A DNA stretch of 64,000 nt. It comes from Lachnospiraceae bacterium A2 (GTDB lineage Bacteria; Bacillota; Clostridia; Lachnospirales; Lachnospiraceae). The notes beneath the pieces were generated by a model, which did not search any database, was not told the DNA's origin, and was given only the letters and a program-made list of their open reading frames with translations. Positions 6,542 through 35,957 of the stretch are shown here, in pieces. Each line of letters starts with the position of its first letter. The stretch's first letter is position 1. The DNA is taken from contig KE159639.1 in the NCBI GenBank assembly GCA_000403315.2, forward strand, positions 165,323 to 229,322, in the 5' to 3' direction. The translations under genes were made by a program, and so were the position numbers.

Positions 6542-6595
6542 TTCTATAGGAAAGATACTTTCACGCTTTAGCGTGACAAGGCCTTTTCTAATAAG
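6542..6595. repeat. Palindromic repeat unit (copy 1 of the TTCTATAGGAAA family)
   Basis: This 54-bp unit begins TTCTATAGGAAA and has an inner hairpin, CACGCTTTAGCGTG. It matches the unit at 35555-35608 closely, but its right arm has drifted (TTTTCTA instead of TTTCCTATAGAA). It sits just after the jetC stop codon and may serve as its 3' hairpin. Confidence 0.8.
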
Positions 6596-31813: not shown

Positions 31814-33604
31814 TTAGGAAACATTTTTAAACTGCGCCATATAAAGGTTATAATAATGCCCTTTCTGCTGCATCAGTTCCGCCGGGCTCCCCTGCTCCAA
31901 AATGCCCCCTTTGTCAATGACAAAAATCCGGTCGGCCCGCTGGACCGTGGAAAGCCGGTGGGCAATGACAAAGCTGGTGCGCCCCTTAAGCAAGGCTTCA
32001 ATGCCCTTCTGTACCAAAAGCTCCGTATGGGTGTCAATGCTGGAGGTAGCCTCGTCCAAAATCAGGATTTTCGGCATACTCACCATGGTCCTTGCAAATG
32101 CAAGGAGCTGCCGCTGGCCAATGGAAAGCCCTGCCCCACGTTCCTTTAACATGGTATCATAGCCATGTTCCATTTTCAAGATAAACTCATGGGCGTTCAC
32201 CGCCTTCGCCGCCGCTACGATTTCACTGTCCGAAGCATCCATGTTCCCATAGCGGATATTGTCCTTTACCGTGCCCTGGAAAATAAAATTTTCCTGTGTC
32301 ATCACCCCCATCTGCCGCCGCAGGCTTTCCATGGATACCTTCTGGATGTCGTAGCCGTCGATGAGGATCCTCCCCTTCTGGATGTCGTAAAAGCGGCTGA
32401 TTAAATTTACAACCGTAGTTTTCCCGGCCCCTGTGGGTCCTACCAACGCTATCGTTTCCCCGGGCCGGACCTGGAAGCTCACTTCCTCAAGGACCTTAGT
32501 TTCCGCAGGGGTTCCCTCGTCATAGGTAAAGGATACGTGTTCAAACTCCACCTTCCCCTCAAGCTCTGGCAGCTCCTCCACATTAGCCCCGTCAAAAATA
32601 TCCGGCTCTGTGTCAAGGATTTCAAAAATACGCTCTGCGGCAGTCAGGTTGGTAACCACCTGATTGTAAAAATTGCTCAGGTTCATTACCGGGTTCCAGA
32701 ACATATTAATATAAGTCCCAAAGGCCACCAACATGCCGATGCTGACATAATCCCCGCCAATCATCCGGATGCCAACCCAGTAAAGAATCATGGCGCCAAT
32801 GCCCCAGCAGAAATCAATGGACGCCCCAAACAGGTCTGCAACCCGGGCACAGCGGACAAAGGCCTGTTCATGGTCTTTTACCAGCCCTGCAAAAATGCCC
32901 TGGGTTTCCTGCTGTGCATGGTAGCCCTGGATCACCTGCATCCCCGCGATCCCCTCGTGGACATATGCGTTTAAGTTGGATCCTTTTTTCCGGAATACCT
33001 GCCAGCTTTCATGGGTATATTTCTGGATAAACCAGATTGCCGCTGCCATCAGGGGGATGCTGCTGAGGGAAGCAAGAGCCAGCCGCCAGTCCTTCACTAC
33101 CATAATCACTACCACGCCGCAGATAGTAACAAAATCCGGGATCAAAGTGGTAACGGCATTTACCAGCACATTTTTCAGGGAATTCACGTCCCCAATGATA
33201 CGGGCAAGGATTTTCCCGGTAGGCCTGCTGTCAAAAAAGGAAAAAGACAAGGTCTGGATATGCTCATAAAGTTCCTGCCGGATGTCCAGAAGGATTTGGT
33301 TCGATATCTTTGCCATCACGTACATCCGTACTTTTACCATTACAATAAAAATGGCATTGATGCACACAGTAATTACCGCCAGCTTTGCCAACCCCTGCAT
33401 GTCCTGGTTTGCAATGGAACCGTCGATTGCTTCTTCAATAATCAGGGGATTTACAAGGGAAATGGCGACGGTAAGCAGCATACAGGCCATAACGCCGGCC
33501 ACTTGGAGCCGATATTGGAGCATGTAGGAGAACAGGCGCTTCAGCGTTTCTTTTTTCCCAATGCTGTTTAACTGCTCGTCTTCTTTATATGAATTAATTG
33601 CCAA
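31814..33604 (-). CDS. ABC exporter half-transporter, catalytically complete subunit (BmrD-like role)
   Basis: Type IV ABC exporter half, 596 residues, with six N-terminal transmembrane helices and a C-terminal ATPase. Walker A is GPTGAGKTTVV and Walker B is ILILDEATSSID, with the catalytic Glu present. The signature is LSIGQ instead of LSGGQ, and the H-loop is VIAHRLS. It pairs with the upstream gene, whose site is degenerate, giving the asymmetric heterodimer typical of BmrCD, LmrCD and TM287/288 multidrug exporters. The TTG start follows AAGAAGGTG. A 51-base gap separates it from the partner. Drug specificity is not visible from sequence. Confidence 0.9.
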   Translation of the reverse strand: MAINSYKEDEQLNSIGKKETLKRLFSYMLQYRLQVAGVMACMLLTVAISLVNPLIIEEAIDGSIANQDMQGLAKLAVITVCINAIFIVMVKVRMYVMAKISNQILLDIRQELYEHIQTLSFSFFDSRPTGKILARIIGDVNSLKNVLVNAVTTLIPDFVTICGVVVIMVVKDWRLALASLSSIPLMAAAIWFIQKYTHESWQVFRKKGSNLNAYVHEGIAGMQVIQGYHAQQETQGIFAGLVKDHEQAFVRCARVADLFGASIDFCWGIGAMILYWVGIRMIGGDYVSIGMLVAFGTYINMFWNPVMNLSNFYNQVVTNLTAAERIFEILDTEPDIFDGANVEELPELEGKVEFEHVSFTYDEGTPAETKVLEEVSFQVRPGETIALVGPTGAGKTTVVNLISRFYDIQKGRILIDGYDIQKVSMESLRRQMGVMTQENFIFQGTVKDNIRYGNMDASDSEIVAAAKAVNAHEFILKMEHGYDTMLKERGAGLSIGQRQLLAFARTMVSMPKILILDEATSSIDTHTELLVQKGIEALLKGRTSFVIAHRLSTVQRADRIFVIDKGGILEQGSPAELMQQKGHYYNLYMAQFKNVS

Positions 33605-33655: not shown

Positions 33656-35398
33656 TTATGCCAGAGTTGCGGCAGCGCTGGCTTCCTCTGGTGAAACGCC
33701 CATTTGGGCTACATACGTGTCATAATACAGCCCTCTTTTTGCCAAAAGCTCCTCATGGGTGCCACGTTCCTTAATCCTGCCGTCTTCCAGGAAAATAATT
33801 TCGTCTGCACGGCGCACGGCGGAAATCCGGTGGGCGATAATGATTTTCGTGGCTTCCAAGGATTCCAAGGATTTCTGGATTTCGTATTCCGTTTCCATAT
33901 CCAAGGCGGAAGTGGAATCATCCAAAATCAGCACTGGGTTCTGCTTTGCAATAGCCCTCGCAATGCTGATGCGCTGTTTCTGCCCGCCGGAAAGGCCAAC
34001 GCCCCGTTCCCCAATAATCGTTTCATAGGCTTCTGGCATGGCTTCGATAAAGCCTTTTGCCCGTGCAAGGCTGGCTGCATGGACCATGGCAGGGCTGTCT
34101 ACGGTTTCCCGCTGCCCCATGCGGATATTTTCTGAAATGGTGTCCGAGAACAGGAATACATCCTGCATTACTGTGCCAATGCTGCTGCGAAGCTGCCCTA
34201 GGGAAAGTTTCCGCACGTCCACCCCATCCAGCTTTACGCTCCCGGCGCCTACGTCAAAAAACCGCATCAGCAGGTTTACCATGGAGGTTTTCCCGGCGCC
34301 TGTGGCTCCCATAACCCCAAGGGTGTTCCCGTGGGCTAAAGAGAAGGACACATCCTCCAAAATTTTCTGGTCCCCTCTGGAAAAAGATACGTGCTCGAAG
34401 GAAATATCCCCCTCCACCTGCTTTAATACCACTGGCTGCTCTTGCTCCTTAATGGAAGATTCCTGCTTGTAAATTTTATTTATTTTTTTACAGGAAGCCA
34501 CCGCAGAGGACAGGTCGTTGGTAAGCCAGCCCAGCATTTCCATAGGCCATACAATGTTCCTGCAGTACTCGGAAAAAGCTACCAGGCTCCCCAGCGTCAT
34601 TTCCCCATGGATGACCTGGACCCCGCCGATAATCACCATTGCCACTGGCAGCAGCTTTCCGATAAATTGGAACATCGGGTAGAACCGCACCAGCACCCTT
34701 GCCTGCTGCATGTTCAGATCATAATACTGCCGGTTGTGGGAAAGGAATTTTTGGATTTCAAATTTCTCCCTTGCAAAAGCTTTTACCGTGCGCACCCCTG
34801 CCAGATTTTCTTCCGCAATGGTAGTAAGCTGCGCATTTTCCTCGCTGATGGCCTCGTAAATTTTATCCAGCCGCCGTTCCATGAAAATGGCGACCGCCCC
34901 CATCAGGACCATTACCCCCAAAGGCAGGAACGCCAATTTCCAGTTCAGGCTAAACATGCAGTACAATACCATGGAAATATGGATGGCTACTTCAATAATC
35001 AGCATCCCCACATACCCCAGTGAATTCCAGACTGCATCTATGTCGTCTTTGACCCGCGCCATCAGTTCCCCGGTGTTGGTGTCGTCAAAATAGTCCATGG
35101 AAAGCCCCTCAATATGGGCAAATAAATCCTTCCGCAGCTTTGCCGCAATCTTAACGCTGACTACGTCAAATGTAAATTCTTTCAGGTAGCCGCCAAGGCT
35201 CCTGCCTGCCCCAATCAGTACAATCATAAAAAGCAGCCCGCCCAAAAGCTCTGTCTGGCCTTTGATGATTACGTCATCCACAATGCTCTTGGTAATGACT
35301 GGATAGAGCATGTCCAATACAATGGCCGCTGCCATGCAGGCGATGGCAAACAGGTAAGCGTACCAGTAATGGGCGATGTATTTCAATATTTTTTTCAT
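33656..35398 (-). CDS. ABC exporter half-transporter, degenerate-site subunit (BmrC-like role)
   Basis: 580-residue half-exporter with six transmembrane helices, then an ATPase with GATGAGKTSMV, signature LSGGQ and H-loop IIAHRIS. Walker B reads LILDDSTSALD: the catalytic glutamate is replaced by aspartate, the hallmark of the inactive site in heterodimeric exporters. The ATG follows AGAAAGGAAGG. Its expression is probably controlled by the leader peptide, structured RNA and terminator at 35.6-35.9 kb. A mosaic palindromic repeat has also been inserted between that terminator and the start codon. Confidence 0.92.
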   Translation of the reverse strand: MKKILKYIAHYWYAYLFAIACMAAAIVLDMLYPVITKSIVDDVIIKGQTELLGGLLFMIVLIGAGRSLGGYLKEFTFDVVSVKIAAKLRKDLFAHIEGLSMDYFDDTNTGELMARVKDDIDAVWNSLGYVGMLIIEVAIHISMVLYCMFSLNWKLAFLPLGVMVLMGAVAIFMERRLDKIYEAISEENAQLTTIAEENLAGVRTVKAFAREKFEIQKFLSHNRQYYDLNMQQARVLVRFYPMFQFIGKLLPVAMVIIGGVQVIHGEMTLGSLVAFSEYCRNIVWPMEMLGWLTNDLSSAVASCKKINKIYKQESSIKEQEQPVVLKQVEGDISFEHVSFSRGDQKILEDVSFSLAHGNTLGVMGATGAGKTSMVNLLMRFFDVGAGSVKLDGVDVRKLSLGQLRSSIGTVMQDVFLFSDTISENIRMGQRETVDSPAMVHAASLARAKGFIEAMPEAYETIIGERGVGLSGGQKQRISIARAIAKQNPVLILDDSTSALDMETEYEIQKSLESLEATKIIIAHRISAVRRADEIIFLEDGRIKERGTHEELLAKRGLYYDTYVAQMGVSPEEASAAATLA

Positions 35399-35444: not shown

Positions 35445-35610
35445 GGTCTTTCCTATAGAACAAGAAAGAATCCTGCCTTGCAGGATTCTCCGCCTGCGGC
35501 GGGTCGCTTTGCGACAGATTTCATACCCGCCGCAGTGCGATAAAAGCTTTTTTATTCTATAGGAAATATACTTTCACGCTTTAGCGTGACAAGGTCTTTC
35601 CTATAGAACA
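35445..35610. repeat. Mosaic palindromic repeat cluster (copy 2)
   Basis: An 18-bp sequence beginning GGTCTTTCCTATAGAA occurs at 35445-35462 and again at 35593-35610. Between them lies a 79-bp core (35467-35545) containing AGAATCCTGC/GCAGGATTCT and CTGCGGCGGGT/ACCCGCCGCAG hairpins. A 54-bp palindrome (35555-35608) has arms TTCTATAGGAAA/TTTCCTATAGAA. The core recurs at 63111-63189 with one mismatch, and the palindrome recurs at 6542-6595. Confidence 0.9.
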
Positions 35611-35638
35611 AAAAAGCCCCGCGGTTTACCCGCGGAGC
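35610..35638 (-). terminator. Attenuator terminator upstream of the ABC exporter operon
   Basis: On the minus strand, GCTCCGCGG-GTAAA-CCGCGGGGC forms a 9-bp GC-rich stem followed by six T. It lies about 210 bases before the exporter start and about 120 bases after the leader-peptide stop, so transcription must read through it to reach the exporter genes. Confidence 0.9.
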
Positions 35639-35758
35639 CACTGTCCCTATATTGCCAAGCGTGCGTTCCCATCGCACAAATCCCATAAATTTTATCGGGC
35701 TGCACCATCCCATGAATAAATGGATGTGCCAGCCTTGCCCGTTTGGGCGTTATGGGGA

Positions 35759-35857
35759 TTAATGGGGAGTCCTGCCTGCCGTCACCGAGGTAAATCTGTA
35801 AGTTATCTTAATGAAGTTGCTGTTGCCGCCGTTTTTATTGTTATTAAGCTTCATCAT
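35759..35857 (-). CDS. 32-residue leader peptide of the ABC exporter operon
   Basis: Small ORF starting MMKLNNNKNGG, Asn/Lys/Gly-rich at first and ending RFTSVTAGRTPH before a TAA stop. The ATG at 35857 follows GCGAGG with 6-base spacing. The promoter is about 65 bases upstream of it. The stop codon abuts the first arm of the enclosing RNA stem. No homologous family was recalled. The role as a translation sensor for ribosome-targeting antibiotics is inferred from the layout (short ORF, structured RNA, terminator, multidrug exporter). Confidence 0.75.
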   Translation of the reverse strand: MMKLNNNKNGGNSNFIKITYRFTSVTAGRTPH

Positions 35858-35928
35858 GTTTTACCTCGCTTTCTTTATTATTTGCAGCAAAGCAGGAAAT
35901 TTGCCTTCCTGCTTTGGATGCTTTCTCT

Positions 35929-35957
35929 ATTAAAACATAGGTGTTAAAATTTGTCAA
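35929..35957 (-). promoter_or_regulatory. Sigma-A promoter for the exporter leader
   Basis: Perfect TTGACA (35952-35957), 17-base spacer, TTTAAT (35929-35934) on the minus strand. It predicts a start near 35922. Such a strong promoter ahead of an attenuator fits constitutive initiation with control by termination. Confidence 0.9.

Follow-up and report, generated by a model that had tools for sequence, protein, structure and literature searches.

A predicted three-state, ribosome-sensing transcription attenuator before a BmrC/BmrD-like exporter pair in Lachnospiraceae

At the bmrB leader of bmrCD in Bacillus subtilis, lincomycin, erythromycin and chloramphenicol act as inducers and translation of the leader is needed, and 50S drugs induced whereas 30S drugs did not, as given in the available text of PMC4191407. 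In Listeria, a change of the start codon of the rli80 ORF stops induction according to the accessible parts of PMC6310831 and PMC8079631, and the Rli59 leader answers to lincomycin, erythromycin and chloramphenicol, with details of its mechanism reported as missing in the latter source (PMC8079631, available text).

Here, we analysed a window of 64,000 nucleotides from Lachnospiraceae bacterium A2, in which an initial annotation had proposed a leader attenuator of the bmrB/vmlR kind before a BmrC/BmrD-like exporter. That part of the proposal was supported, while the stem near the leader stop codon as the switch, and induction by a stall at the end of the peptide, were not. The attenuator is real and widely conserved, and its switch differs from the one first described. 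We propose, at a probability of roughly 0.7, that it is a three-state, ribosome-sensing transcription attenuator in which one segment of the leader ORF is common to two exclusive helices.

The leader region and the exporter pair in the window

The features of the locus are listed in Table 1. The promoter had been called perfect, which holds for the -35 element and the 17-base spacing but not for the -10 element, TTTAAT matching TATAAT at 5/6 positions. In the alignment of the genus, TGACAA occupies the -35 place in 13/15 rows and TTTAAT or TTTACT the -10 place in the same 13, rows L001 and L010 beginning downstream of the -35 place. Between promoter and terminator lies a leader ORF with a Shine-Dalgarno (SD) sequence, the arrangement of the ribosome-mediated attenuator class; the 32-codon ORF with a ribosome site was present as annotated (SD AGCGAGGTAAA), and so was the GC-rich intrinsic terminator with six T, which begins 119 nt past the leader stop codon. 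The leader region is single copy in its own genome. A strong hairpin, CAAAGCAGGAA...TTCCTGCTTTG (35916-35888), stands between promoter and SD in the window genome, and in 13/14 other genus rows the promoter lies at most 60 nt from the SD, which leaves no room for it.

Table 1. Positions of the attenuator and exporter features in the window
Feature	Position	Strand	Evidence or remark
-35 element TTGACA	35952-35957	minus	sequence
-10 element TTTAAT	35929-35934	minus	sequence; spacer to -35 of 17 bases
Leader SD strand CGAGGTAAA	35860-35868	minus	pairs with 35794-35786 in minimum-energy fold; partner-swap test
Leader ORF, 32 codons, MMKLNNNKNGGNSNFIKITYRFTSVTAGRTPH	35759-35857	minus	frame kept relative to anti-SD core in 63/73 loci
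Anti-SD switch segment TTTACCTCG, in ORF (codons F-T-S and next base)	35786-35794	minus	common to both helices
Intrinsic terminator hairpin GGCTCCGCGGGTAAACCGCGGGGCT then TTTTTT	35615-35639	minus	10 pairs; genus comparison
Terminator 5' arm/loop CGGGTAAA	35625-35632	minus	predicted antiterminator partner of 35794-35786
Exporter subunit A, 580 aa, ABC membrane + ATPase	33656-35398	minus	BmrC (YheI) chain 8t1p_C, E = 4.6e-95
Exporter subunit B, 596 aa, ABC membrane + ATPase	31814-33604	minus	TM_0288 3.9e-115; BmrD (YheH) 3.7e-101

Both exporter proteins are fusions of an ABC membrane domain and an ATPase domain. The best scores among solved chains went to two-domain transporters of eukaryotes, of the ABCB1 kind. 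When only bacterial solved chains are considered, the nearest are BmrC for subunit A and TM_0288 for subunit B, the latter also matching BmrD at 3.7e-101, so that the controlled genes probably encode a BmrC/BmrD-like exporter at the level of family likeness (4.6e-95 and 3.7e-101). The canonical Walker B motif is ILDE and the canonical ABC signature LSGGQ. By eye, the Walker B motif of subunit A reads ILDDS, and subunit B carries the Walker B motif ILDEA and the signature LSIGQ. The ILDDS of subunit A and the LSIGQ of subunit B are consistent with one degenerate ATP site, as in such exporters, and fit what had been claimed for the gene pair.

Directly past the attenuator terminator lies a 54-base palindromic repeat, TTCTATAGGAAA...TTTCCTATAGAA (35555-35608), with 12 copies in its own genome and partial copies at 35449-35460 and 6542-6553; by eye, similar elements also follow the terminator in loci L004, L005, L007 and L014.

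Conservation of the leader among exporter homologs

Upstream regions were obtained by searching 41 genomes and the best 80 of 379 relatives in GTDB contigs. After removal of 9 duplicates, 3 loci with less than 300 nt upstream and 1 paralog (38% identity) from 98 loci, 85 were examined. A leader call, for which a short ORF had to possess both an SD and a core complementary to that SD, was made in 74/85 homologs from these 41 genomes and best 80 of 379 relatives, and a duplex energy of -9.5 or lower was found in 69/85 homolog upstreams compared with 2/370 block-shuffled upstreams of the 74. Relatives in which the leader was called include Roseburia sp. 1XD42-69 (L039), Lachnotalea glycerini (L060) and Anaerocolumna aminovalerica (L061). 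No leader candidate was found at 13 paralog exporters (0/13). The call was negative at 11/85 loci (L034, L051, L057, L062, L072, L073, L080, L090, L102, L103 and L108); at L034 the terminator immediately follows the promoter and the leader ORF is missing, so that the sensor may have been lost naturally. In the genus of the window, by our own reading and among the matches listed, the leader occurs in 17/29 genomes, one copy each. Leader ORF and terminator thus recur at exporter homologs in Lachnospiraceae and some other families.

In other classes of the phylum, at 44-47% identity, our own reading found the SD complement in 7/15 loci (L203-L206, L208, L209 and L216 within L203-L217), which were the ones judged to have a leader, a candidate in L212 being left uncounted. 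A looser script gave candidates in L221, L222, L223 and L230 of L218-L230, all with TTG starts. In another lineage, represented by L211, L213, L214 and L215, the exporter homolog is preceded by a leader of a different kind that is very short (ATG ATT AAG GGT GTT CTT AAA TAA).

The leaders range from 24 to 53 codons over 73 loci; L101, in which the anti-SD was placed by hand, was omitted from the frame count, the masked folding and the peptide composition. The anti-SD core is in frame with the ATG in 63/73 loci. Frame 0 is open by selection, and stops occur in the other two frames in 61/73 and 69/73. At homologous loci the ORF frame was kept, while in the genus only the terminator was kept of the structure 3' of the stop codon. 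A terminator-like hairpin lies 3' of the leader in 74/74 loci, although in L063 and L106 the hairpin picked is probably not the attenuator's own, and that of L063 was re-placed by hand for the swap test and the masked folding.

The initial annotation had held that a stall at the peptide end blocks a stem starting at the ORF stop, so that polymerase passes the terminator. This stem, enclosing two inner hairpins, does appear in the minimum-energy fold of the window sequence, and of 12 equally spaced genus leaders, 6 have exactly R-(I/V)-P-H as their last residues, with similar ends in others. However, across 15 genus loci the region from stop to terminator has a mean identity of only 31% and varies from 55 to 124 nt, and RNAalifold retained no pairs in that region but those of the terminator. 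Conservation thus does not extend to the enclosing stem, which was rejected as the switch after alignment and folding of these loci. Moreover, outside the genus the peptide end differs, the conserved switch segment would lie beneath a ribosome stalled at that end, and no synonymous-site excess was found after F-T-S (see below). We regard this version as decidedly unlikely.

A ligand-binding riboswitch overlapping the ORF had been offered as an alternative. The leader RNA folds better than its shuffles (minimum energy -103.6 kcal/mol, z = -4.31; 0/100 shuffles as good), and a leader with a terminator before an exporter is a common setting for riboswitches. Yet conservation falls on the SD, on the bases complementary to it and on the loop of the terminator, which pairing explains, and the ORF frame is kept. 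Rfam gave 0 matches at the gathering score in the window; at E up to 10 there were 16 matches, all below gathering, the best (E 0.012) at the exporter start. With no conserved structure downstream of the stop codon other than the terminator, the sequence data argue against the alternative, and a riboswitch appears extremely improbable here.

One coding segment and its two pairing partners

Within the ORF, a conserved segment of 9 bases, UUUACCUCG, is complementary both to the leader's own SD and to the arm and loop of the terminator. In the window it corresponds to codons 22-24 (F-T-S) of the leader, and its pairing with the SD is present in the minimum-energy fold, though absent from the initial list of structures. 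The leader peptides are little alike except for this F-T-S near the end, encoded in many leaders as UUU-ACC-UCN, which is the reverse complement of the leader's own SD (GAGGUAAA). In 72/74 leaders the SD pairs better with the anti-SD core than with every other tested ORF window, a count that is partly so by choice, since the core was taken as the best-pairing among set motifs, which favours the SD test.

After F-T-S, no synonymous-site excess was found in 12 genus leaders: 64/325 differing codon pairs were synonymous in frame, and 38/312 and 66/310 in the other two frames. Nothing therefore points to a conserved arrest peptide, a reading set aside on this ground, and the act of translation, rather than the peptide, appears to be what is kept. 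The RLR motif of macrolide arrest-peptide leaders, as the available text of PMC6310831 gives it, is absent from the window peptide, and one distant leader, L204, does contain RLR.

Over 73 leaders, asparagine is abundant in frame (15.9%) but not in the other frames (at most 6.6%); an example in the window is 35857-35795. A trp-type attenuator that senses an amino acid, most likely asparagine, would account for this. However, asparagine is the commonest residue in 19/73 peptides only and by eye keeps to no particular codon position, what is controlled is an exporter gene, and the asparagine may itself be explained by the unstructured, A-rich stretch that separates the helix strands (41% A). We therefore consider amino-acid sensing very improbable.

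On the terminator side, two-sided changes were found in 6/10 stem pairs over 15 genus loci. GGTA occurs in the 5' arm or loop of 56/74 leader terminators and in 16/285 other terminator-like hairpins of the same loci, a count that does not represent 74 independent events because the loci are related by descent. The anti-SD and its neighbouring bases fit the terminator of their own locus: GAAAUUACC matches GGUAAUUUC in L066 and L109, GAAAUACC matches GGUAUUUC in L083, and AAAUUUACC matches GGUAGAUUU with one G-U in L012.

Partner swaps were used for both helices over the 74 loci. The true SD:segment pairs averaged -12.3 kcal/mol compared with -10.6 for swapped ones, and the true segment:terminator pairs -9.7 compared with -7.1 kcal/mol, with 0/20000 permutations as good in either case. 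By 5' arm and loop alone, the own pairing ranked at a median of 0.16 among unrelated terminators and in the best 5% in 14/74 loci; by this measure the antiterminator is weak, and bases past the loop were added for the segment:terminator swap test. Both swap results hold in 20 dissimilar representatives, in 14 of which at most 3/19 swapped terminators were as good. In the window (L001), 10/19 swapped terminators were as good as its own or better, and L015, L058, L082, L101 and L106 likewise do not stand out in the segment:terminator swap.

A second set of 13 loci, mostly more distant homologs, also gave 0/20000 for both helices. It includes L015 and L017, which are also among the 74, and L169, L174, L175, L176 and L179 of the window's own family; 13/14 loci were resolved, the SD of L016 being missing at a contig end, and the terminators of L169 and L174, probably picked wrongly by the script, were retained. 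L170, L173 and L182 were not entered; L173 and L182 have no clear leader, and in L170, by eye, the SD:ORF pairing is present and the terminator partner absent. The same logic is written in other letters in L171, where AGAUAACCC pairs with GGGUUAUCU, and in L017, where AAUAGCCC pairs with GGGUUAUU; in L172 and L178 the SD GGAGGCAGG pairs with CCUGCC. For the 7 loci from other classes the swap test was weak (234/5040), because the sequences there are much alike. The anchors of the 13-locus and other-class tests were chosen by eye, partly for their SD match.

We then consider the folds predicted with modelled ribosome positions. In the free RNA, the segment pairs with the SD at a mean probability of 0.90 over 73 loci. 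With the SD and start masked, the mean probability of segment:terminator-arm pairing was 0.53, 0.61, 0.72, 0.66 and 0.24 when the RNA ended at -1, 0, 2, 5 and 8 nt from the loop end, and exceeded 0.5 in 39, 46, 57, 51 and 16 of the 73 loci, respectively; the masked-start switch fades as the 3' arm emerges, from 57/73 at 2 nt past the loop to 16/73 at 8 nt. When unrelated terminators were swapped in at 2 nt, the mean was 0.20, with values above 0.5 in 78/438. Pairing is zero by construction for a segment under the ribosome and for a masked SD. With a ribosome modelled at codon 8, the SD:segment pairing persists; such a ribosome leaves the SD free, and the model therefore requires that the start itself be occupied, either by a single ribosome or by one queuing behind another that has stalled.

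In the window with the start masked, 35794-35789 pairs with 35625-35630 and 35787-35786 with 35631-35632. With an RNA that ends 2 or 5 nt beyond the loop, this antiterminator is the state of lowest energy, which does not hold for ends at 0 or 8 nt; its ensemble probability is 0.02-0.20, so that the switch is predicted weakly here and would act co-transcriptionally, before the terminator closes. The window terminator (-20.2) is also stronger than the antiterminator duplex (-11.2), and the antiterminator must therefore be won kinetically. For the set of loci as a whole, terminator and antiterminator are exclusive and the anti-antiterminator overlaps; at the window the antiterminator is weak, while the relatives L009 and L012 have a strong predicted one.

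These values for the window bear on a rival explanation, in which the SD:ORF pairing alone is functional, lowering translation of the leader, and the terminator answers to general coupling of transcription and translation with no specific antiterminator. The SD:segment pairing is indeed the most regular feature, and in the window the antiterminator is weak, with swapped partners doing as well as the true one. But this explanation leaves unaccounted for both the enrichment of GGTA in leader terminators and the co-variation of segment and terminator in the 74 loci and the 13-locus set, and we consider it unlikely.

Proposed mechanism and comparison with known systems

Two helices that share a coding segment and co-vary over many loci, a terminator, a kept frame and a change of pairing when the start is masked are what comparison and computation found. 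In cells, the three-state attenuator would operate as follows. With no ribosome loaded, the segment would pair with the SD as an anti-antiterminator, the terminator would fold and the exporter would be off. Free-running ribosomes would cover the segment while passing over it, after which it would be free to pair with the SD once more, so that the exporter is again off. A ribosome held over the SD and start codon by an inhibitor or another slow-down, directly or through a queue, would mask the SD and keep the segment free until the terminator 5' arm and loop (GGUAAA) emerge; the segment would then pair with the GGUAAA region as the antiterminator, and polymerase would read on into the exporter pair. 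A ribosome at the peptide end would cover the segment and leave the exporter off. The claim that a stall at the peptide end (RFTSVTAGRTPH) turns the switch on would thus fail, a ribosome there covering codons 22-24, and the stall-site prediction is reversed: the segment would be free with the ribosome at the start and covered with it at the end. Translation inhibitors would be the likely trigger, and the exporter would presumably remove them.

Leaders of the same kind also occur before other genes. A strict pattern searched in 397 Lachnospiraceae genomes was found at 17 places in 15 genomes, compared with 1 for the reversed control. Eleven of the 17 lie before exporter A homologs (one being the window, and L184 assigned by eye), 2 before an RsgA-type GTPase in two genera (L189 by Pfam, L192 by eye), 1 before another ABC protein (L199), 1 near a contig end (L188) and 2 before small unassigned ORFs (L198 and L200), with an NFACT/RqcH gene about 600 nt further on in L200. 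The RsgA leaders carry GGC, not GGUA, at the terminator apex, which makes their antiterminator uncertain. We tentatively raise the possibility, for which the odds are rather against, that this is an old, uncatalogued Bacillota module that senses whether a ribosome occupies its own start site, whichever drug or peptide is involved, and that came to stand before several ribosome-stress genes (the exporter, the RsgA-type ribosome GTPase of L189 and L192, the ABC protein of L199 and possibly genes near RqcH/NFACT in L200).

If the three-state attenuator is correct, the exporter in many Lachnospiraceae and relatives would be under a general "ribosome is stuck" switch with no drug-specific arrest peptide, which predicts induction by chemically unrelated translation inhibitors and would help explain low-level multidrug tolerance in gut bacteria. 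F-T-S would then have arisen as a side effect of RNA pairing, a warning that a short peptide may be conserved for reasons other than its own function. Genomes could be searched by a simple rule that works without expression data: an SD complement in a short ORF, with the same segment matched in the next terminator.

The proposed logic is by analogy that of bmrB, vmlR and rli80, and since these and Rli53 work likewise, it is already known. The variant for which we found no description in the open-access literature is that the leader's own SD serves as a strand of the anti-antiterminator and that a single coding segment is common to both helices. According to the available text of PMC4191407, bmrB shares with the window a leader ORF before a heterodimeric BmrC/BmrD exporter, with terminator, antiterminator and anti-antiterminator predicted there. 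By that description, however, the bmrB terminator lies inside the leader ORF, whereas here it follows the stop codon, and the bmrB anti-antiterminator lies in nucleotides 60-162 of bmrB, not at the SD.

At vmlR of Bacillus subtilis, as the accessible parts of PMC9226507 describe it, a ribosome on the uORF likewise prevents the anti-antiterminator so that the antiterminator forms. Unlike here, the uORF has 3 codons and lies in the anti-antiterminator, the SD is single-stranded before the anti-antiterminator, and the controlled gene encodes an ABCF factor; vmlR also has a pause hairpin and a hairpin that sequesters its own SD (PMC9226507, same parts). The 3-codon uORF of the vmlR and Rli53 leaders has no counterpart among our 73 leaders, all of 24 codons or more. 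In Listeria, the available text of PMC6310831 and PMC8079631 describes for rli80-hflXr and Rli53-lmo0919 a short ORF that overlaps the anti-antiterminator, as in the leaders studied here, but the rli80 ORF has 14 codons with an RLR motif, that of Rli53 has 3 codons, and the genes controlled are others.

The ABC-leaders resemble the window leader in being attenuators predicted before ABC transporters, one example being a multidrug export operon found in two lactobacilli; unlike it, they form a mixed prediction set, and the available part of PMC2965389 does not mention an SD:ORF design. Finally, Rli59-lmo1652 of Listeria combines, in the available text of PMC8079631, a small ORF and a conditional terminator before an ABC transporter gene, as the window does, and by description and analogy it may be the system nearest in function to the window leader.
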